Below are positions 4,131 to 23,377 of a stretch of DNA of 40,189 bases, piece by piece. The stretch is from NCBI RefSeq assembly GCF_003003775.1, contig NZ_PVWJ01000040.1, positions 1 to 40,189 on the forward strand, read 5' to 3'. This DNA is from Merismopedia glauca CCAP 1448/3 (GTDB lineage: Bacteria; Cyanobacteriota; Cyanobacteriia; Cyanobacteriales; CCAP-1448). Positions within the stretch are counted from its first letter, which is position 1. Each line of letters opens with the position of its first letter. Below the pieces are notes generated by a model. It saw only the letters and a program-made list of their open reading frames with translations, was not told the origin of the DNA and searched no databases. Made by a program: the position numbers and the translations under genes.

Positions 4131-5879
4131 ATGGCATACGGAATTTGTCGCATTCAGAAACTCAAAGCAGGTTCCCTCAACGGGTCTGGCAGGCACACCA
4201 ACCGAGAAAGTCCCACCCCCAACGCCGACCCCCAAAGGCAGCACATCCGCATCATCGGCGCACCCGATACCAAAGATATCCCCAACCTAGAAACATTAGT
4301 CAGGCAGCATATAGGTGAGCAGACCATTCGCAAAAACGCCGTCCTCGCCGTTGAATTTTTGCTCACAGCCAGCCCCGAATACTTCAGACCGGACGACCCA
4401 GCCAGATCTGGATACTACGACCCCCAGCGACTCGAATCATTCCAGCAGCAAGCTTGCCAATGGCTGGTTGATAGATATGGCAGCAGAATCGTCAGAGCCG
4501 AACTGCATCTCGACGAATCCACCCCCCACATCCACGCCTATTTAGTCCCCCTAGACGACAAAGGTAAATTGAACTGTAGGGGCTTGCTGGGCGGAAGTCG
4601 CCATCGGCTCTCGGAACTGCAAGATGACTTTGCTTCATCTATGGCTCCCTTGGGACTGCAACGAGGCATCAAAGGCAGTAAAGCCAAGCATACAGAAATT
4701 AGTAAATATTACGCGGCTATCAACTCAGCCCCCCAAGCAAATCTCGATCTGGCAACCATGCAACAACTAGTAGCAGATCGAGAACGAGCCATTCAAAAAA
4801 GCGCCAGAATGGAACGAACGGCTCAGGCATTAGCTGAAAAAATAGCCCGCTCTGAAGCTCTAATTGAGTCCCTAGAAAACCAAAAAGATGCCGCAGCCCA
4901 AACAGCCAAACAATGGCAAACCAAATACCTCGACCTAGCCAATCGAGTGCGGGATCTTCCTTTAGAAAAAGTTGCCAACGAACTCGGTCTAGAACCAGAT
5001 CCCAAATCCCCCCATAAATGGCAGCACTCAAACCATACCATCAACATCACTGGCAGCAAATTTTACGACTGGCAGCACCTCAAAGGAGGAGGGGGAGCCA
5101 TCGACCTAGTAATGCACGTCAAAGAGTGTAAATTTCCCCAAGCCGTAGCCTGGTTAAACCACCGCTTCGGGGAATCAGCCACCCTCGAAGCAGTTACCTA
5201 TCGAGCCAGGGAAATTATTCAAACCGAACCAGTCCCTCAATTCACTCCACCCCCTGCTCAAGAGAACCATTGGCAACAGCTAAAAACCTACCTCACCCGC
5301 CAATGCAGATTACCCAGCAGCTTGATAGATAACCTGCACCACCAGGGATTATTGTATGCAGATAACCGAGCCAACGCCGTCTGGCTGCGCCGTACCATCG
5401 ATAGTTCTACTATCAACGGTGCCACCCTCCAAAATACCGCAGGAGGCGACAGCACCTCAATGGAATTAGCCATTGGCTCCGAGCGCCATGCCGGATGGTT
5501 TCACTTCCAAATGGGGGGACAATCCGGTGAGCCAATTAACAGAGCCATCTTAGTAAAATCTCCCCTCGATGCCATATCATTTGCCGTATTAGACCGCACC
5601 GAATCTCGCCCGACGATTTATTTATCTACAGATGGAACTGCTGTAGTTCCCGTAGAGTTTTTGCAGACTCTACCCCAGGCATCAGTCATCGTCGCCTACC
5701 CCAACGACACCGAAGGCAATATCATGGCGCAAAAAGTCATGGAGCAGTTGCCCGATTGCAGGCGCAAGACACCCAAAGCCCAAGACTGGAATTCGGATCT
5801 CCAAAAGATGTTGAATTTAGAGCTACCAAGGAGCCAGCGACAGGTGGAGCCGAAGTCGAATCAAGGGTTAAGCTTGTAG
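4131..5879 (+). CDS. MobV (Mob/Pre) family relaxase fused to a Toprim-like domain
   Basis: A 582-aa conjugative relaxase that would nick oriT and covalently hold the transferred strand. Residues 1-200 are the Mob_Pre domain: the N-terminal motif MAYGICRIQK, then GRHTNRE with His22, and the HUH motif HLDESTPHIH with His126, Asp128, Glu129, His133 and His135. These positions coincide with those known for MobM of pMV158, where His22 is the catalytic nucleophile. Residues about 210-265 form a coiled coil. Residues about 275-345 (LPLEKVANELGL, then a GGGGAIDLVMHV loop) and 440-560 resemble the DUF3991/Toprim primase-like tail. In the Toprim part the usual first Glu is replaced (VKSPLDAIS where VEGPxDA is typical), so catalytic activity is doubtful. 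The ATG at 4131 begins the conserved motif directly. Confidence 0.9.
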   Translation: MAYGICRIQKLKAGSLNGSGRHTNRESPTPNADPQRQHIRIIGAPDTKDIPNLETLVRQHIGEQTIRKNAVLAVEFLLTASPEYFRPDDPARSGYYDPQRLESFQQQACQWLVDRYGSRIVRAELHLDESTPHIHAYLVPLDDKGKLNCRGLLGGSRHRLSELQDDFASSMAPLGLQRGIKGSKAKHTEISKYYAAINSAPQANLDLATMQQLVADRERAIQKSARMERTAQALAEKIARSEALIESLENQKDAAAQTAKQWQTKYLDLANRVRDLPLEKVANELGLEPDPKSPHKWQHSNHTINITGSKFYDWQHLKGGGGAIDLVMHVKECKFPQAVAWLNHRFGESATLEAVTYRAREIIQTEPVPQFTPPPAQENHWQQLKTYLTRQCRLPSSLIDNLHHQGLLYADNRANAVWLRRTIDSSTINGATLQNTAGGDSTSMELAIGSERHAGWFHFQMGGQSGEPINRAILVKSPLDAISFAVLDRTESRPTIYLSTDGTAVVPVEFLQTLPQASVIVAYPNDTEGNIMAQKVMEQLPDCRRKTPKAQDWNSDLQKMLNLELPRSQRQVEPKSNQGLSL

Positions 5880-6041: not shown

Positions 6042-6404
6042 ATGGATGACAAACGCATACCCGCTAGCTTCTACCAAACTGAAGCAGGTAACGAGCCAGT
6101 CCGCGATTGGCTCTTGGGACTCACTCAAGAAGAACGCAAGATCGTCGGTACTGATATCAAGACAGTTGAGTACGGCTGGCCCATAGGGATGCCTACCTGC
6201 CGTCCTCTGGGCAAAGGACTCTATGAAGTTAGGTCTAACCTGCCTAATCGCCGCATCGCTCGCGTATTTTTTTGCATCTATGAAGAGCGAATGGTTTTGC
6301 TACATGGATTCATTAAAAAGACGCAAAAAACCCCCAAACCTGAATGGGACTTGGCATTAGAACGTAAAAGCAAACTGGAGGCACAACAAGATGGCGAACC
6401 ATAA
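6042..6404 (+). CDS. higB: HigB/RelE-type toxin (Gp49-like, DUF891)
   Basis: A 120-aa protein of the RelE/HigB superfamily, ribosome-dependent mRNA interferases in the characterised members. Family features are the opening FYQTEAGNEPVRDWL, a central GWPIGMPTCRPLGKGLYEVRS and the C-terminal ARVFFCIYEERMVLLHGFIKKTQKTP, which supplies the conserved basic and aromatic positions of this fold. The toxin gene precedes the antitoxin gene, the order typical of higBA. Its 3' end overlaps the antitoxin start by 14 bases. The promoter places the 5' end of the mRNA within a few bases of ATG 6042, so translation may be leaderless and weak. It lies between the relaxase and the partition genes, where it would act as an addiction module. 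Confidence 0.85.
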   Translation: MDDKRIPASFYQTEAGNEPVRDWLLGLTQEERKIVGTDIKTVEYGWPIGMPTCRPLGKGLYEVRSNLPNRRIARVFFCIYEERMVLLHGFIKKTQKTPKPEWDLALERKSKLEAQQDGEP

Positions 6405-6705
6405 CCCTCATATTGGCTCAACTCTCGACGATCTTTTAGAAGAAGAGGGATTGTTAAGCGAAGCCAATGCTCTAGCTTTGAAGCGAGTTCTAGCTTGGCA
6501 GATTACCCAAGAAATGGCAGCCAAGAAAATGACTAAAAAAGCAATGGCATCGGCAATGAATACCAGTCGCTCTGCTCTATCTCGACTTCTAGATCCAGAA
6601 AATACCTCTGTTACTTTGCATACGATGGAACGAGCAGCAACCGTCATGGGCAAGCGATTGCACCTGGAATTAATTGATGGCAAGAAAAAAACCGCAGCAC
6701 CTTAG
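6391..6705 (+). CDS. higA: HigA-type Xre-family antitoxin
   Basis: A 104-aa helix-turn-helix protein. After a short acidic N-terminus, residues about 30-90 carry the Xre-type HTH: QEMAAKKMTKKAMASAMNTS, then SALSRLLDPENTSVTLHTM, a layout typical of HigA and of Gp49-associated antitoxins. The start ATG lies inside the toxin gene and has its own Shine-Dalgarno (GGAGG, about 10 nt upstream), so it can be made in excess over the toxin. It should neutralise the toxin and repress the promoter at the 6015-6026 palindrome. Its last four bases overlap tail-to-tail with the convergent parA gene, leaving no room for a terminator between them. Confidence 0.88.
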   Translation: MANHNPHIGSTLDDLLEEEGLLSEANALALKRVLAWQITQEMAAKKMTKKAMASAMNTSRSALSRLLDPENTSVTLHTMERAATVMGKRLHLELIDGKKKTAAP

Positions 6706-7379
6706 CCATCGATAATCGCGGTTCGTTCGAGAACCTTAACTAACTCATCGGTCAGGCTTTCAATTTCATCAATAGCTTCCTTCCCCTTAGCTCCAAAACC
6801 CTGAACCGCGCGTCCGAACACCGCAGACTGTCTGTAGACCTGACGGCTGGCAATACGAGTCTGACATAGCTCGATGCCAAATTCAGACAGGATGTTGAGA
6901 GCTTCCTTAGCCAAAGATGTATTTCCCTGATATTGGTTGAGGACTAAACGAGCTTTCAGAGTTTCGTTAATACCCGACACGTTATGGATGACTTCTCTGA
7001 TTCCCACTGCCGCCCACATATCGAGAGGGGATGGAATCAGGGGAACTAGGGCTAAATCGGCAATCAGCAGGGCACTTTGAGGAACGGGGGAATCCGCCGC
7101 AGGGGGGCAATCGATAATAATCCAATCGTAGTCATCAATGAACTTCTTGACCTCTCGATGCACCTTGGTATTGGCAGCACTCAGTCCGATAACTGAAGCT
7201 GGGAAAAGTTGGTCGTCTGAGGCGGAAGCTGCCCACCTAGTAGCAGTCCCTTGGGGGTCAGCATCAACCACCAATACCTTATGAGAGCGATTGGCAAAAG
7301 AACCAGCCAGGTTCATGCTGACGGTGGTTTTCCCCGCCCCGCCCTTCTGATTGACTACCGCGATAACTTGAGCCGCCAT
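6702..7379 (-). CDS. parA: ParA-family partition ATPase (short, type Ib-like)
   Basis: A 225-aa ParA ATPase without an N-terminal DNA-binding domain, so of the short ParF/Delta-like type. Visible motifs are the deviant Walker A NQKGGAGKTT, the switch I segment DADPQGTATRW, Walker B WIIIDCPP and the later LIPSPLDMWA loop. I place the start at ATG 7379 (MAAQVIAVV); a GTG at 7388 would add three residues. The gene would move plasmid copies over the nucleoid together with a small centromere-binding partner. It diverges from a ribbon-helix-helix gene across four arrays of 9-bp repeats, and the first array covers its promoter region, so it is probably repressed by that partner. Confidence 0.92.
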   Translation of the reverse strand: MAAQVIAVVNQKGGAGKTTVSMNLAGSFANRSHKVLVVDADPQGTATRWAASASDDQLFPASVIGLSAANTKVHREVKKFIDDYDWIIIDCPPAADSPVPQSALLIADLALVPLIPSPLDMWAAVGIREVIHNVSGINETLKARLVLNQYQGNTSLAKEALNILSEFGIELCQTRIASRQVYRQSAVFGRAVQGFGAKGKEAIDEIESLTDELVKVLERTAIIDG

Positions 7380-7398
7380 AAAAATCACGTGGGATACA

Positions 7399-7515
7399 GT
7401 AAAAATGGTTAATAAAATATAAACAATTTATACAGTAAAAACTGTTGACATGGTATAAATATGATAAACAGTGTAAACCGTTAAAAGCATATATATCGTA
7501 TAAACAGTTAATTAA
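7399..7515. repeat. 9-bp repeat array 1 (13 units), candidate centromere/operator
   Basis: Thirteen contiguous, degenerate 9-bp units in unbroken register (starts at 7399, 7408, 7417 and so on to 7507). The better units read GTATAAACA, GTATAAATA, TGATAAACA or GTGTAAACC; the last reads GTTAATTAA. The array begins 20 bp upstream of the parA ATG and must include its promoter. It also creates a spurious minus-strand ORF with a three-residue period. Confidence 0.75.
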
Positions 7516-7567
7516 GAGGAGAGTGCTGCATGACAACGCCCCCTGAAGGCATAGAGGGAAACTATCT

Positions 7568-7639
7568 ATTTATAACGTATAAAACGTATAAACTTGGTAA
7601 ACCGTATAAATGATATAAACTTTACTAAGAGTTAATCTG
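7568..7639. repeat. 9-bp repeat array 2 (8 units)
   Basis: Eight units in register from 7568. The clearest start at 7577 (GTATAAAAC), 7586 (GTATAAACT), 7604 (GTATAAATG) and 7613 (ATATAAACT). As in array 1 it ends with a GTTAA unit (7631). Confidence 0.7.
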
Positions 7640-7772
7640 AAGAGGACTGTCAGATGATATAACAAAAGGCAGAAGACAGGAGGGAAAGACTTAATTAGTA
7701 AAGGTTTCAGCTTTTAATCATGTCCTCACTTGAATACGTACTGCTATAGCACCTGAGCTAGACCCAGAAAGA

Positions 7773-7834
7773 AAGTAAACTTTTTATAAAGTATAAACTA
7801 TATAAAAATGTAAACTATATAAATAGTTAACCCC
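7773..7834. repeat. 9-bp repeat array 3 (7 units)
   Basis: Units start at 7773, 7782, 7791, 7800 (one base short), 7808, 7817 and 7826. The core is again TATAAAC/T or GTAAACT, and the last unit is GTTAACCCC. Confidence 0.65.
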
Positions 7835-7875
7835 CCAAGGACAACACCTGCTCTAGACAATAAAGGAGGTGAATT

Positions 7876-7911
7876 ATTTATAATGTATAAATCATATAAA
7901 TAGTTAATTGG
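7876..7911. repeat. 9-bp repeat array 4 (4 units), upstream of the RHH gene
   Basis: Units ATTTATAAT (7876), GTATAAATC (7885), ATATAAATA (7894) and GTTAATTGG (7903). The array ends 32 bp before the start codon of the ribbon-helix-helix gene, where it could control that promoter. Confidence 0.65.
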
Positions 7912-7943
7912 AATTAGACCTGACGGTGGCGTGGGAAAAATAG

Positions 7944-8330
7944 ATGGATACTAAAAAGATGAAAGGGGCACTCTCTAGCTCGATGTTGGCAGAAACGGAG
8001 GCAGTTCAAAACAAGAAAGTTACTGATACAACAGCCGACCGATTCGAGCAAGCTGAGGCATTCTTTGAGGACAATTTGCCAACGTTACCTAGTAGTAAGG
8101 CAGACTCAAAGACTCAAGTGAGAGATAGTTTCACCTTTCCCCTAGAAGACCACGAATTGATTGAGAAGATTATTAACCGATGCTTAAAGCAGGCTGTGAG
8201 CGTGAATAAAAGCGAGACGCTACGAGCCGCCCTGCGGTTACTCCACAGTCTTTCTGATGAGGAGCTAATCAAAGCCTTTTCGGGTATTGAGCGGATTAAG
8301 ACTGGAAGACCGCCGAAAGGTGGGGCATAA
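7944..8330 (+). CDS. Ribbon-helix-helix protein, probable ParA partner (centromere binder)
   Basis: A 128-aa protein with a flexible polar N-terminus (1-65) and a ribbon-helix-helix domain at about 66-115: a strand with alternating side chains (RDSFTFPL), a helix (LIEKIINRCLKQA), a short turn, and the second helix SVNKSETLRAALRLL. The C-terminus ends in KTGRPPKGG, an AT-hook-like motif. This matches small centromere-binding partners of short ParA proteins (ParG, Omega), which use their N-terminus to contact ParA and the RHH domain to bind arrays of short repeats. It diverges from parA across four such arrays. The AT-hook-like tail would suit AT-rich nonamers. Domain assignment is from sequence pattern; the partnership is inferred from context. 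Confidence 0.75.
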   Translation: MDTKKMKGALSSSMLAETEAVQNKKVTDTTADRFEQAEAFFEDNLPTLPSSKADSKTQVRDSFTFPLEDHELIEKIINRCLKQAVSVNKSETLRAALRLLHSLSDEELIKAFSGIERIKTGRPPKGGA

Positions 8331-8378: not shown

Positions 8379-8687
8379 TTAGGAAGTGATATGGGAAGTA
8401 ATATGTTCGAGTAGCGTCTCGTTAATAACTGATTGATAGCCGACTCCACGCCTTTTAGCTTCAGCTTTTGCCCATTCAACTATCTTCGGGTGGAAGCAAA
8501 TATGAGTCGATTTGTATTTTTCCTCTTCCCTTTTGGGCGGTCTTCCTGCCTTTCTAGCTGGGTTATCCAATTGCGACTTATTCTTAGAGGGTCTTCCCCT
8601 TTTTTTGGCTACGCTTTCTGAATCGTTATTACCGTTAGAAGTCTTACTATCTTGTAATTCAAAGTAAATATCTTCTTGAACAGGCAT
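8379..8687 (-). CDS. Ribbon-helix-helix protein with two AT-hook-like motifs
   Basis: I start this 102-aa protein at ATG 8687 (MPVQEDIYFEL); the open frame extends further upstream, but that part does not look coding. Residues about 24-52 hold two AT-hook-like motifs, KKRGRPSKNK and RKAGRPPK, separated by a polar linker. Residues about 57-97 form a CopG/RHH-like unit: KSTHICFHPKIVEWAKAEAK, then GVGYQSVINETLLEHI, as in BrnA- or CopG-type repressors. It converges on the other RHH gene and diverges from the replication gene at 8912, so it may regulate replication. It could also be an orphan antitoxin, but no toxin gene adjoins it. The GRPxK motif shared with the neighbouring RHH protein suggests related DNA targets. 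Confidence 0.65.
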   Translation of the reverse strand: MPVQEDIYFELQDSKTSNGNNDSESVAKKRGRPSKNKSQLDNPARKAGRPPKREEEKYKSTHICFHPKIVEWAKAEAKRRGVGYQSVINETLLEHITSHITS

Positions 8688-8911
8688 TCTAAATTTATTA
8701 AATTTTGTGAAAATGTAGCTATTCGTCAGTTTAAGATGTACATTAAAATTGTGCCACAAAGAGCAAAGTCTTTTGAGTTGTGGCAGAGCCACTGACAGAC
8801 CAACGCAATTATGCGTCACCGCCAGTAGCCCCAAAAGCCTTACATCTTTAGGGTAGCATATTGGCTCATCGGCTGGCTCTCCTCTAGCTAAAAAAGGAGA
8901 GAAAATTTATA

Positions 8912-11113
8912 GTGACCCCAGCAGCCCATTTCCCCAAAGATGAACGGGGGAAGCGGTTCTGCCAGTTCTTCACCCATCGCCATAACTTCATCGAAGCCCA
9001 AGCGAACAAAAACAACCGACCGGACTGGAAGACCGTCACCGACTACCCCATCGAACATCGAAACCTGTGGCACAGATTCCAAGACCCACAGACCCTCATC
9101 GGAGTCAGCTTCGGCAGCAGCACCAACTATGCCCTGCTCGACATTGACATCAATAGTCCATACCATCCCCATACCAACGAAGCCGCCTTTAGAGAACTCC
9201 TCGGAGCCTACGAAGACGTAGGACTAAACGAATACATAGCCATTCAATCCTCCTGGAGCCGAGGCATCCACATCTACTTTCCCCTGCCCAAATTCGTCCC
9301 CACATATCACCTTGCCTGCCTGTTGCGCCTCACCGCCATCAATAGCGGTTTTCGAGTCAAAGATGGCGAACTAGAGATCTTCCCCAACACCAAAACCTAC
9401 AACCCTAAAAAACCCACCAACTACAAAGCCCACCGCCTCCCCTTACAACCAGAGAGCGGTTCCTTCCTGCTCGACGACGACCTACAGCCAGAAAGCGACA
9501 GCATCGAGAAATTCCTCGATCTAGCAGATATGGCATCCCTGGGACAGGACATAGAACTAATCGAAGGAGCAGCGATCTCCGCCTATCAAACCCGCAAGAG
9601 TAGATCCTTCGCCCCCTTGAGCATCAAAGCCGAAGAATTCGAGCGAGACTTGCTCGAACAACTAACAGACGGTTGGAGCGACTACGGACAAACCAACGAT
9701 CTCTTGAGAGTCATCGGCACCTACGGACGCATCTTCAAAAAAGTAGGGGACAGACCGCTATCCTTGCCCGAACTAACCGAATATATCGCCACCACAGCCC
9801 AAAAACTTCCCAATTACCGCAAATACTGCCGCCACCAGCACAACATCAACCAGCGAGCCGCAGACTGGGCTAGATGCGTCGCCAAATTCTACTACCCCTA
9901 CGGCAGCGAACCCAACCGAGAGGGTAGATTCCCCACCGTGCGCCCCAAAGTCGAGGTCGCGGGTCTGCCACCTGCGGGCAGACCTCCAGCGACCGTCCAA
10001 AAAGAGAACGTCGTCAACGGCTCACGCGCCCATCAAGCTGTAGAGCGGCTTCAAAGTGCCTACGACCATCTCATCGCCACCCTCGGCACGCTCCCCCAAA
10101 GAATCGAACAACTCAAAACCCTAATAATAGAAACCAGCCAGAAACTATTTGGCATCAGACCGAGCGATAGGACATTAAACAAGCATCGCTCCATCTGGCA
10201 CCCCCAGCATCAACCAACCCCTCCACAAGCGACTGATAACAGCCAACCAACAGCATCCGCATCCCATCACCTCACCAACCCAGAAAATCCAGAAGCCACC
10301 AGAGACGAAGAACAAAAAGAAAATCTACACAGAGAAGATCGCTCCCCCACACCCGTACCAGCGCCAAGCCTTGCGCCCCAATCCAACACACCACAAATTG
10401 AAACACACCAAAAAACCAGATCCACAAGCACTCCTGGCATCTGCCACACCCCCCTTGATGTAGTACGTAAATTAGCGTCCAATATTCCCACCTCCCAACC
10501 CATACCAGATAACAATTTCAGCCAATCTGCCACACCCCCCCTCTATATGAAGGTGGCGGAGGCTTTCTCACCCTCTGAATCCGCTTCTTCTCCTGGTGTA
10601 GTTGTTGTTAGCCCTAAAGCCATGCATCAACCAAACCAAATTGAAAGTCACAAAAACCAAAATCAAAATAACAACAACAATTCCAGACAGTTAGATAAGC
10701 CAAGTTTATCTGTGGAAACCGGACGCAAACCGCTAAAAACGGATAAGAGAAACTTATCTTATCTCCTGCATCCTCAGTTGTATCGCTCAGTTATAGAAGC
10801 AAGCAGCCGGATACTGTGCCAAACCATTGAGGTGATACAGCCACCTAGTCAACCACTCATAGAAGCAGAACCAAGCGCTCAAAGCACCAATCTCCAGAGC
10901 GACTTCCTGACATGGTACGGCAACGTCAGGAAGACAGACGATGGGGTACTCGACGTGCCTCATCGATACTTGCCGACAGATCGGAACAACCAGCCTTTGG
11001 TGAGAATTGGCAGACCAGATCCCTGGCTGAAAATACCATATACACTTTTGCCCTGGCGAGAGGCGATGGCAGAGTTCCCCCTTTTAGATCTAGCCCCAGA
11101 TCCCCCAGGCTAA
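8912..11113 (+). CDS. Primase-polymerase (AEP)-like plasmid replication protein
   Basis: A 733-aa protein beginning with GTG 8912, preceded by a good Shine-Dalgarno (AAAGGAGA). Residues about 65-165 carry the three hallmarks of archaeo-eukaryotic primase-type domains: LLDIDIN with Asp77 and Asp79, SSWSRGIHIYF with His120, and GELEIFP with Glu155. Such proteins initiate or prime replication on many plasmids. Residues 230-330 form a helical extension, and about 375-435 contain a further helical, possibly DNA-binding, unit. Residues about 440-640 are Pro/Ser/Gln/Asn-rich and presumably disordered. The last 40 residues are again ordered-looking. Replication function is inferred from this domain and from the neighbouring partition and mobilisation genes. 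No helicase motif is present. Confidence 0.7.
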   Translation: MTPAAHFPKDERGKRFCQFFTHRHNFIEAQANKNNRPDWKTVTDYPIEHRNLWHRFQDPQTLIGVSFGSSTNYALLDIDINSPYHPHTNEAAFRELLGAYEDVGLNEYIAIQSSWSRGIHIYFPLPKFVPTYHLACLLRLTAINSGFRVKDGELEIFPNTKTYNPKKPTNYKAHRLPLQPESGSFLLDDDLQPESDSIEKFLDLADMASLGQDIELIEGAAISAYQTRKSRSFAPLSIKAEEFERDLLEQLTDGWSDYGQTNDLLRVIGTYGRIFKKVGDRPLSLPELTEYIATTAQKLPNYRKYCRHQHNINQRAADWARCVAKFYYPYGSEPNREGRFPTVRPKVEVAGLPPAGRPPATVQKENVVNGSRAHQAVERLQSAYDHLIATLGTLPQRIEQLKTLIIETSQKLFGIRPSDRTLNKHRSIWHPQHQPTPPQATDNSQPTASASHHLTNPENPEATRDEEQKENLHREDRSPTPVPAPSLAPQSNTPQIETHQKTRSTSTPGICHTPLDVVRKLASNIPTSQPIPDNNFSQSATPPLYMKVAEAFSPSESASSPGVVVVSPKAMHQPNQIESHKNQNQNNNNNSRQLDKPSLSVETGRKPLKTDKRNLSYLLHPQLYRSVIEASSRILCQTIEVIQPPSQPLIEAEPSAQSTNLQSDFLTWYGNVRKTDDGVLDVPHRYLPTDRNNQPLVRIGRPDPWLKIPYTLLPWREAMAEFPLLDLAPDPPG

Positions 11114-20280: not shown

Positions 20281-21102
20281 TTACTGGTACGATCCATCTG
20301 GGTAGCGAACTACACCAGCGAAATGAGTGGCAATTTTTCCATTTTGCAAAACCCAGTTATCGTAGAAGCTGAGTTCCCCAAGATCGCCGTTGACACTTTT
20401 AGTTTTGACCTTTTCTACGATCATCAATGTGTTCTCTGTCTCAGCCCATTGAGCAATTTCGACGTGTAAATCCTCTAGGCTAAAAATGCGACTTTCAAAG
20501 AATTCTTTGAGTGCTTTTCTACCTTTGATGTAGACGGGTTTTCGATTTTCAGTTAAAGTACTAATTAGCAACAAATCTTCAGTATATTGATTGAGTAAAC
20601 CATCAATATTCTTAGCTTTGATAAAGCCGATATGTTCTTGATAAAGTTTGCCTAAAGGTGAACTTGGCACTTCTATTTTAGCTGTTGAAGCATCTGCATA
20701 AGTGCCATCTGGATAGCGAATTACTCCAGCAAAATGGATCGCAATTTTTCCATTTGGTAGAAACCAATTATCGTAGAATTCAACTTTGCCAACCTCGCCG
20801 TTAACCCCTGTAGTTTCGATCTCTTCTACTATCATCAGGGTGTTTTCTGTTTCAGCCCACTGCTTCAGAGTAATGTTGATATCTTCGAGACTGAAAATGC
20901 GACTTTCAAAAAATTCTTGGAGTGCTTTTCTACCTTGAATGTAGAGGGGCTGACGATTCTCGGTTAAAGTGCTAATTAGGAGCAGATCTTCAGTGTATTG
21001 ATTGAGTAAGCCATCGACATTTTTGGCTTTGATGAAACCGATATGCTCTTGATAAAGTTTGCTCATCGGAGAGAGCGCCAATTGTTCTAAAGGAGTTTCC
21101 AT
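20281..21102 (-). CDS. Tandem NTF2/SnoaL-like domain protein
   Basis: A 273-aa protein from ATG 21102 (METPLEQLAL); the open frame reaches further upstream without family similarity. It consists of two copies of a SnoaL/NTF2-like cone domain, each about 120 residues, joined by a short linker. The copies are very similar: both contain LYQEHIGFIKAKN, DGLLNQYTEDLLLISTLTEN, RKAL or similar, FFESRIFSLED, QWAETENTLMIVE and HFAGV(I/V)RYPDG. This points to a recent in-frame duplication. NTF2-like domains bind small hydrophobic ligands or act as isomerases and polyketide cyclases; no catalytic set is obvious. Two more single-domain NTF2 genes follow upstream on the same strand, making a cluster of four domains. 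Confidence 0.85.
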   Translation of the reverse strand: METPLEQLALSPMSKLYQEHIGFIKAKNVDGLLNQYTEDLLLISTLTENRQPLYIQGRKALQEFFESRIFSLEDINITLKQWAETENTLMIVEEIETTGVNGEVGKVEFYDNWFLPNGKIAIHFAGVIRYPDGTYADASTAKIEVPSSPLGKLYQEHIGFIKAKNIDGLLNQYTEDLLLISTLTENRKPVYIKGRKALKEFFESRIFSLEDLHVEIAQWAETENTLMIVEKVKTKSVNGDLGELSFYDNWVLQNGKIATHFAGVVRYPDGSYQ

Positions 21103-21951
21103 ATAAATCTTTTTCCTGAGATGTTTTTGACGAAAAAATAGACACAATCTCCGTCCATTAGACCTCCTGCATAAATCCGAAATTAAACGCTATAACCAAT
21201 AGACATCTTGCAGAAGTAAAGCCGGATTCAATCTGGGCAAGGCGTTCAGCGAATTTTCAATTAATAACTGAAAGTGAATTACCTGATACTCAAATCGAGT
21301 TGTGACAGCTATTCAGCCCCATCAAGATAATAAACATTTTGAGTTATGCAAGAGGTCTACAACAGTTCCTTCAGTTATGAGGTACGAGAGCAGCAATTAG
21401 CAAACCAGTATGAGGTACGAGAGCAGCAATTAGCAAACCAGTTTCTCAAACGTTGAGGATTCACTGTGTACTTCACTACAGCCGGAACGGCTGTAATAAC
21501 TAAAAAGACTTTCAGCTAATTATTTATTATTAGTCGATCGTCTCTAAAAACGTGATGACACAAAGATCTGTTTGATACTTTTGCTGGAGGTCTATTTATG
21601 ACGGGAAGATTCCCAAAAATTAACCGTTTTGTGTCAGTCGTTGAACGATATCTGTGGGCTGAAATGCAGTAAGTTTATTATTATTAAAGCGAACTGACAA
21701 CTCAGCGCCACCTCTATAGCAGTTCTCAATTGAGTGAGATACAGATTGCTTTTTTGAAACTCTTGTTTGCTGTGCATCTTACCCGCCCATGAGTAGTGCA
21801 TCAAAACCAGAACCGCTATATTGCTAACGTGCGGAATTTGGACTGGGGAATGATAACGAAATAGTTTGGGCATTGTTTAATTGGAAAAGAAGCTACTTAA
21901 TTTAATCGAAAAAAGAGCTACTTACCTGCTTAACTTATTTGGTAATTATCC
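21103..21951. other. Long intergenic region with dispersed and tandem repeats
   Basis: It contains copy B of the 106-bp repeat (21357-21495) and several copies of a short dispersed motif with the core GCAAGAGGTCTA (near 21346-21360, and reversed near 21166-21177). A weak ORF at 21634-21873 has no recognisable product. Otherwise I see nothing coding. Confidence 0.5.
21357..21495. repeat. 106-bp repeat, copy B, with an internal 33-bp tandem duplication
   Basis: Same structure as 19472-19577. The block beginning TATGAGGTACGAGAG occurs twice in tandem (21376-21408 and 21409-21441), which accounts exactly for the 33-bp length difference. The right end carries the same hairpin (21477-21484 with 21488-21495). 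It is about 255 bp upstream of the tandem NTF2 gene. Confidence 0.75.
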
Positions 21952-22860: not shown

Positions 22861-23377
22861 GGTTTTACTCCATCTATAGAACAATTCTCGATCTGAAAAC
22901 TATGATTCTAAGTCGCCCCAAAATTGATTAGACTTCTGGCGAAACTCAAGCAAGATTGTCTCTGGGTCAGGATTTGAGCTAATACCAATTTCCAAAAGTA
23001 ACTGAAGACTTAGTGGATCGAAATGTTTGATATATCGCTATTTCAAGATTCAGATCTATTTAGCTACTTTTGACAAACGGTATAATCACGATCTGGATTC
23101 AATCAAGGCTTATTGAGAATAAGGCTAATTACTCAGAAAATTCTCGATAACCAAGCTTATTGACAGAGGATTTATTGTGACTGCGATCGCGAACAGAGAA
23201 ATCGAACTTTTCGGTGCTGAATCCCAAATCCCGATTCCCGTAGCCGCAGGCTGCGCGCAGCGCATATCCCGATTCCCGTAGCCGCAGGCTGCGCGCAGCG
23301 CATATCCCGATTCCCGATTCCCGACTCCCGACTCCCGACACACCAGAAATATCGGACTTATGCAAGAGGTCTATTGG
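22861..23377. other. Intergenic region with tandem and dispersed repeats
   Basis: No real gene. Two minus-strand ORFs here are products of the tandem repeat at 23229-23340. The region also carries one copy of the dispersed GCAAGAGGTCTA motif (about 23359-23374) and a HIP1 octamer near 23183. Confidence 0.55.
23229..23340. repeat. 38-bp direct repeat twice, followed by CCCGATT/CCCGACT heptamers
   Basis: Two identical 38-bp copies abut at 23229-23266 and 23267-23304, each starting TCCCGATTCCCGTAGCCG and ending in CGCATA. Degenerate 7-bp repeats (CCCGATT, CCCGACT) follow to 23340. This is the short-tandem-repeat class common in filamentous and unicellular cyanobacteria. Confidence 0.85.

Follow-up and report, generated by a model that had tools for sequence, protein, structure and literature searches.

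Huang and co-workers are said to have found in 2011 that the ribbon-helix-helix (RHH) protein ParB of pCXC100 (Leifsonia) binds nine 9-nt direct repeats. In excerpts of PMC5016525, the pCXC100 centromere is described as containing only direct repeats. The delta/omega system of pSM19035, as presented in excerpts of PMC5016525 and PMC9499535, combines a ParA-class ATPase with a small RHH binder and several separate arrays; the binder doubles as a repressor, the genes are transcribed separately, and ParA is fully activated only by four or more heptads in an unbroken run (PMC9499535). A tail-plus-RHH layout is found in the TP228-type ParF/ParG, parH system, where the N-terminal helix of ParB docks at the ParA dimer interface (excerpts of PMC5393062).

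The window, by which we mean the whole stretch of 40,189 nucleotides of Merismopedia glauca DNA that was analysed, holds four arrays of 9-bp repeats between divergent genes for a ParA and for a 128-aa protein. The locus resembles pSM19035 in its ParA-class ATPase, its separate arrays and its separately transcribed genes, and its small protein would likewise be an RHH binder that acts as a repressor. The unit is 9 bp in the window and its relatives and not the 7-bp heptad of pSM19035 by which the omega family is recognised, omega is only 71 aa compared with 128 aa for the window protein, and hhalign of the window family against omega gave no significant match. With the TP228-type system the locus has in common the layout of a tail plus a (here likely) RHH domain and the PDB matches of its ParA (see below). 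However, parA and parG are arranged in tandem in the ParG system and divergently in the window, the repeat period is 8 bp in the one ParG plasmid compared, and hhalign against three ParGs only was not significant (probability 1.2%, E 0.042). The pCXC100 ParA/ParB system reportedly shares the unit length of 9. Burkholderiales HTH-type ParB systems have near ParAs, and some of their ParB N-termini resemble the tail of the window protein, but the three of these ParBs tested carry ParB_N and HTH_ParB domains, for which the window protein has no Pfam match, and the nine such loci scanned have no nonamer arrays. TrcR, a cyanobacterial RHH repressor, was considered as a match and rejected, as it reads a different 8-bp site in an excerpt of PMC10272220. 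Among the matches listed for open PMC papers, none was on this ParA/RHH pair or its nonamer.

The first-pass annotation had proposed that a 9-bp unit may by itself define a new centromere type. This is doubtful given the nine 9-nt direct repeats reported for pCXC100 ParB, and the 9-bp unit in itself is probably not new. What looks new is the binder family, the ACNGTWWWW code, and the tail that the family has in common with some HTH-type ParBs. Judged from its sequence, the locus appears to work like a type I RHH partition locus without being an omega member.

Nonamer arrays in the window

The first-pass annotation had also counted about 32 degenerate nonamers in four arrays of 13, 8, 7, and 4 units, each ending in GTTAA, with an unbroken register over 117 bp in array 1 and with the outer arrays abutting the starts of the flanking genes. 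Our analysis (Table 1) agreed with this total and partition and found the 13 units of array 1 to be contiguous. The GTTAA ending was present in all four arrays (ACAGTTAAT, AGAGTTAAT, ATAGTTAAC, and ATAGTTAAT for arrays 1-4, respectively), and it is no general feature of the arrays of relatives. Array 1 lies 16 bp from the likely parA ATG (7377-7379) and array 4 lies 35 bp from the ATG at 7944. Array 3 contains a single 8-bp unit at 7806, and the scan counted one unit fewer there than were counted by eye because the first unit (7770) scores below zero.

Table 1. Coordinates of the arrays and flanking genes in the window, and loci of relatives
Feature	Position or loci	Strand	Description
Array 1	7396-7512	none	13 nonamers ACNGTWWWW, array score 78.1
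Array 2	7565-7636	none	8 nonamers, array score 37.5
Array 3	7770-7831	none	7 nonamers by eye, 6 by scan, array score 27.7
Array 4	7873-7908	none	4 nonamers, array score 23.3
parA	6702..7379	-	short ParA of Walker type, lacking an N-terminal HTH domain; start probably the ATG at 7379
Proposed centromere-binding protein, 128 aa	7944..8330	+	from alignments A2-A4, AF2 model, VIA, NCBIfam ParD
Relatives keeping the N-terminus	L010 (= L021, L080), L011, L012 (= L027), L020, L022-L026, L028, L029, L030
Domain-only loci	L031-L069 and L013-L016

The core had previously been given as TATAAAC, which is the identical repeat read in another phase. We find that the unit is best written as ACNGTWWWW, a palindromic ACNGT core followed by four A/T bases, with the direction of the unit being set by these four bases between the palindromic cores. 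Among the 31 full window units, A occupied position 1 in 30, C or T position 2 in 23, G or A position 4 in 27, T position 5 in 28, and A position 8 in 30.

The period-finding check that had been suggested for 7389-7943 gave a z of 4.0 for period 9, and 0 of 1000 dinucleotide shuffles were as high. By autocorrelation within single arrays, period 9 was found in array 1 (z = 4.7) and array 2 (z = 3.9). The same script returned period 7 on pSM19035 (z 4.5 and 4.4) and period 8 upstream of parA on one ParG plasmid (z8 3.0, z9 -1.7). Arrays were called at a cut-off score of 14 with a symmetric position matrix built from the window units, the same units to which the window array scores refer. No further array with a score of 14 or more was found elsewhere in the window, and 338,310 bp of shuffled sequence contained two arrays above 14, the best at 15.1. 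Ten column-permuted matrices found 0-11 arrays in 14 loci, compared with 51 for the true matrix. A search of the own genome for two adjacent units with one mismatch gave 21 matches versus 66 for the reversed control, and since 5 of these 21 are the present arrays, only the window cluster stands out.

The minus-strand ORF at 7279-7536, which had been called false and attributed to the repeats, has array 1 inside it and no NCBIfam match; this origin is plausible because a 9-bp period repeats three identical codons. A sigma-70 scan of 7300-8000 returned 2 sites versus 2.3 expected, and promoter evidence is therefore absent from this region.

A short ParA and a likely RHH protein flank the arrays

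The window ParA matches NF041546 with an E of 2.2e-61 (206.9 bits versus a cut-off of 180), and its best PDB matches are the ParA 5u1g (6.8e-26), which we take to be TP228 ParA, and the ParF 4dzz (3.5e-25). By these matches it is a short ParA without N-terminal HTH domain, as is typical of type I RHH-class partition. Its ATG was chosen by comparison with relatives, which begin M[TAVP]AKI; the ORF is also open from a GTG at 7388. PADLOC gave weak matches for parA and for the ORFs at 6042-6705, and no match for the RHH protein.

The 128-aa protein consists of a helical N-terminal tail (~1-45), a linker, an RHH-like domain (~58-105), and the conserved motif KTGRP near its end. It met no Pfam family and reached no NCBIfam cut-off. 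With E values up to 1 allowed, the NCBIfam ParD antitoxin model TIGR02606 matched 14 of 32 family members, the best of them at 3.9e-5 and the window protein at 0.079, far under the cut-off. A first AF2 model (13 alignment rows) had a pLDDT of 63.6 and no Foldseek match. The second (32 rows) had a mean pLDDT of 74.0, exceeding 90 by block for residues 71-110, with long N-terminal helices and with helices at 67-82 and 89-102 downstream of a conserved RDSFT segment; Foldseek returned nothing under E 0.001 for this model. The single-chain model contains no strand, and the RHH strand forms only between two chains. In a VIA comparison with 26 chains, the top two were RHH proteins (ParD2, Z 3.9; NikR, Z 3.7). 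A PDB sequence search with alignments A1 and A3 gave no convincing relative, and the search with A3 placed ParD antitoxins at E 0.62-1.5 (alignment A4 excludes L013-L016 and L069). An RHH fold is likely, though by a weak assignment.

Reading the KTGRP end as an AT-hook would be a guess: this candidate was rejected, with AT_hook matches at E up to 1 in 0 of 37 members, in a search whose HMMER filters may drop so short a motif. Among viral contigs there were 87 pattern matches, none of them a relative.

Arrays in relatives with ParA

Twelve relatives keep the N-terminus of the small protein (Table 1). One of them is proteobacterial, Candidatus Contendobacter odensis (L030, Pseudomonadota); L012/L027 is the circular record of Calothrix sp. 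NIES-4101 plasmid5, and in L029 the contig stops at residue 13 of the small protein. Eight plasmid records with the small protein were found, of which five (H1, H2, H3, H5, and H8) were analysed. The search of related loci for nonamer arrays that the first-pass annotation had called for was positive in 12 of 12 relatives, with arrays by parA and/or the small gene. A full-length parA match adjoins the small gene in 10 of the 12, and the two genes are divergent in 10 of the 11 relatives in which both are visible, L030 being tandem. The 13 ParA-linked loci, which include the window, L017 (without RHH gene), and L025 (broken parA), have 9-36 units each, with a median of 27.

Period 9 ranked first or second in all eight intergenic stretches of relatives tested (z 2.6-6.2; 500 shuffles each, with the long stretches of L026 and L028 left out). 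In seven outer stretches it ranked first to third, beside 18, 26, or 27, and over intergenic and outer stretches together z9 ranged from 2.4 to 6.2. Among 251 units in relatives, which were picked by the window matrix that favours such a composition (the period itself having been tested matrix-free), position 1 was A in 242, position 2 C or T in 217, position 4 G or A in 229, position 5 T in 240, and positions 6-9 A or T in 233-247. This count excludes four arrays, namely L023:3807, L024:3816, and L025:4376 because of register breaks, and L029:674 because it is weak. In several relatives the unit direction flips inside an array with the register kept (e.g. L020:3788 and L070:35219).

The system is rare, since it occurred in 2 of 386 genomes of a phylum sample and 3 of 148 of a relatives sample, with the own genome counted in both. 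In Phormidesmis priestleyi ULC007 (L025:3575-3796), parA is broken after ~76 residues, and the RHH gene and arrays remain. On a plasmid of Calothrix sp. 336/3 (L017, NZ_CP011383.1 44990-53640), parA is flanked by arrays on both sides; the RHH gene was not found on this plasmid record, and the stretch just upstream resembles, by eye, a transposase gene. Calothrix NIES-4101 plasmid5 has a seven-unit, nearly dyad-symmetric array ~7 kb from its par genes (L070:35219-35281, AP018278.1), upstream of a type I methyltransferase gene.

The nonamer beside RHH-domain genes without ParA

The RHH domain was also found behind other N-termini, often Lys/Ala-rich, in 43 loci (39 genome contigs and 4 plasmid records; L041, whose RHH frame contains a stop, is counted among them). 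The KTGRP end is mostly kept in these proteins, and the stretches around the 43 genes contained no ParA match at E 1e-4. Going by titles, all are proteobacterial except for an Akkermansia MAG, in which both the operator and the protein match those of Limnohabitans. In 38 of the 43 loci (325,406 bp scanned) there was one short array each, where the shuffle rate predicts about two arrays anywhere by chance. With the exception of L058, the first in-frame ATG follows the end of the array at a distance of 2-36 bp (37 of 38), and 35 of 38 arrays have 3 units. The 38 array-bearing proteins form 15 clusters at 80% identity, and their arrays 18 distinct 27-mers. The scores of L013 (16.1) and L037 (15.9) are modest and within the range of AT-rich shuffles, and are supported by position. 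Five of the 43 loci scanned had no array; of these, L043, L049, and L051 carry KPGR for KTGRP, and L014 and L036 have the usual KTGRP. By pattern search, three Limnohabitans genomes had one such site apiece, and a Paraburkholderia genome was matched in two places.

Because arrays occur at domain-only loci, the nonamer unit seems to go with the RHH domain, whether or not a ParA is present. The domain-only family members could be nucleoid proteins or repressors.

Proposed function of the arrays and alternative explanations

We consider it highly probable that the arrays serve both as centromere and as operators in plasmid partition of type I, RHH class, being tandem short repeats beside the par genes that are conserved in relatives. 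The first-pass annotation had assigned them to the ParA/RHH pair in this way, which comparison supports well (12 of 12 full-length and 38 of 43 domain-only loci), unlike the novelty it saw in a 9-bp unit. In the proposed mechanism, the 128-aa protein would dimerise, its RHH domain would read one ACNGT core, and successive dimers would sit 9 bp apart in an array. With the arrays near their starts occupied, parA and the RHH gene would both be repressed, and the arrays jointly would form a partition complex. Each dimer may then dock its N-terminal helix in the ParA-ATP dimer and lead to ATP hydrolysis, with the partition complex following ParA over the nucleoid. We infer binding, repression, ATPase activation, and partition, as we do the RHH fold, which has support. 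As a matter of geometry, seven 9-bp units span 63 bp, equal to six turns of 10.5 bp, and would thus bring the dimers back into phase. If the heptad rule of pSM19035 applies here too, arrays 1, 2, and 4 would have long enough runs and array 3 would be excluded because of the 8-bp unit that interrupts it.

The arrays might alternatively be operators only, through which the small protein represses itself and parA, with partition taking place elsewhere or not at all. The short, autorepressor-like array at the gene start in domain-only loci, the single sites in the Limnohabitans genomes, and the position of the outer window arrays near both gene starts would fit this. Yet the number of units is about ninefold higher with ParA (median 27 versus 3), and in 11 of 12 relatives (L011 and the window lack it) an array lies where the RHH gene needs no operator, at its 3' end, which makes this explanation unlikely. 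Iterons bound by a replication initiator would also fit short repeats that stand in tandem in the AT-rich DNA of a likely plasmid. We regard them as very improbable here: when the 14 window ORFs were compared, as the only queries, with 16 loci of relatives (including two overlapping pairs), only parA and the small RHH-like gene recurred (14 loci each), and similar arrays precede the gene in loci without ParA match, some of them on contigs of several hundred kb.

We give just as little credence to binding of the arrays by another DNA-binding protein, for which the neighbouring ORF 8379-8834 would be an example with its weak CopG/BrnA likeness and weak AT-hook match; at E 1e-5, this ORF matched nothing in the 16 loci of relatives, where the arrays are present. 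A chance or low-complexity pattern of AT-rich DNA might be suspected since arrays 3 and 4 alone were not significant by autocorrelation (171 and 138 of 1000 shuffles as high, respectively) and since 6 of 500 shuffles of the window stretch scored 14 or more. However, all window arrays scored above the best of these shuffles of their own AT-rich stretch (17.0), array 4 included, no arrays were found in 29 unrelated loci (166,628 bp, among them loci of other ParAs from the same genome and of HTH-ParBs), and the arrays are conserved across phyla, so that chance has a negligible share among the explanations.

Read as centromere and operators of a partition system, the repetition of ACNGTWWWW every 9 bp would be a readable code for a binder family without curated model, and sites could therefore be recognised from the sequence of replicons in cyanobacteria and proteobacteria. 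Stable shuttle vectors for cyanobacteria may also become easier to build.

The N-terminal tail and the ParA tree

A tail profile made from the N-terminal part of the 12 proteins was run over 4,407 stop-to-stop segments of the compiled loci. The family came first, followed by the four best non-family matches, all of which were HTH-type ParBs (L019, E 1.3e-5; L095, 0.051; L018, 0.11; L096, 0.19). Against 1,800 shuffled decoys, of which the best reached 9.6 bits, L019 scored 23.4 bits and L018 11.0, and L092 (7.8 bits) and L091 (5.8 bits) fell below the best decoy. The likeness is individually significant for L019 only, and L018, L095, and L096 are mutually close relatives; the ParBs of L091, L092, L093, L094, and L097 gave no significant match. 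All three Burkholderiales ParBs tested had ParB_N and HTH_ParB domains. The profile matched none of the 43 domain-only proteins (best E 9.6), and the tail therefore goes with ParA.

In the plasmid collection, the ParAs of HTH-type partners are the nearest outside group to the window ParA (up to 48%). A ParA tree of 29 rows, with many forks unsettled, did not place the HTH-partner ParAs all together, L093 (on a long branch) standing apart from the other eight. After removal of six long rows, including L093, the eight HTH-partner ParAs formed one clade (99/98) beside Contendobacter (93/91), and RHH- and HTH-partner ParAs were grouped apart from two ParG-partner ParAs and L102 (98/97). In these trees the L017 ParA is labelled RHH-type by its arrays, the RHH gene not having been found there. 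A single clade of RHH-partner ParAs was not rejected (p-AU 0.123), with a program warning of long branches meeting.

The likeness between the tail and the N-termini of HTH-type ParBs is a hint at exchanged DNA-binding halves. Tentatively, and at chances that we put somewhat short of even, one ParA lineage may have exchanged the DNA-binding half of its adaptor, in either direction, behind a kept ParA-docking tail. The tail would then be joined to a nonamer-reading RHH domain in cyanobacteria and Contendobacter or to ParB_N/HTH in Burkholderiales. The RHH domain would also occur without the tail, following N-termini that are Lys/Ala-rich or of other kinds, and its gene would then be autoregulated through a short nonamer operator. 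The alternative to an exchange is that the docking motifs are convergent. If an exchange did occur, the RHH-ParB and HTH-ParB subtypes of type I partition would be interchangeable modules on one motor. Should the tail and the DNA-binding half indeed be modules, a static RHH array and a CTP-clamp ParB could be compared on one ParA, their equivalence being a question left by the HTH/RHH subtype split.

The contig and neighbouring genes

The window also contains a MobV relaxase gene (4131-5879), then a Gp49-like and HTH pair resembling a toxin-antitoxin system (6042-6705). Together with ParA, these suggest a mobilisable plasmid, and from the relaxase and from homologues on Calothrix plasmids we infer the contig to be a plasmid; there is no overlap between its two ends. 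The minus-strand gene at 8379-8834, for the weakly BrnA/CopG-like protein with the weak AT-hook match, converges with the RHH gene. It is followed on the plus strand (8912-11113) by a gene for a 733-aa protein without Pfam match, of which residues 2-429 have 39% identity to a product of Calothrix NIES-4101 plasmid5. Further repeats in the window are a 411-bp tandem duplication at 20294-21062, with copies 79% alike, inside the ORF at 20281-21147, and a perfect 38-bp repeat at 23228-23316.
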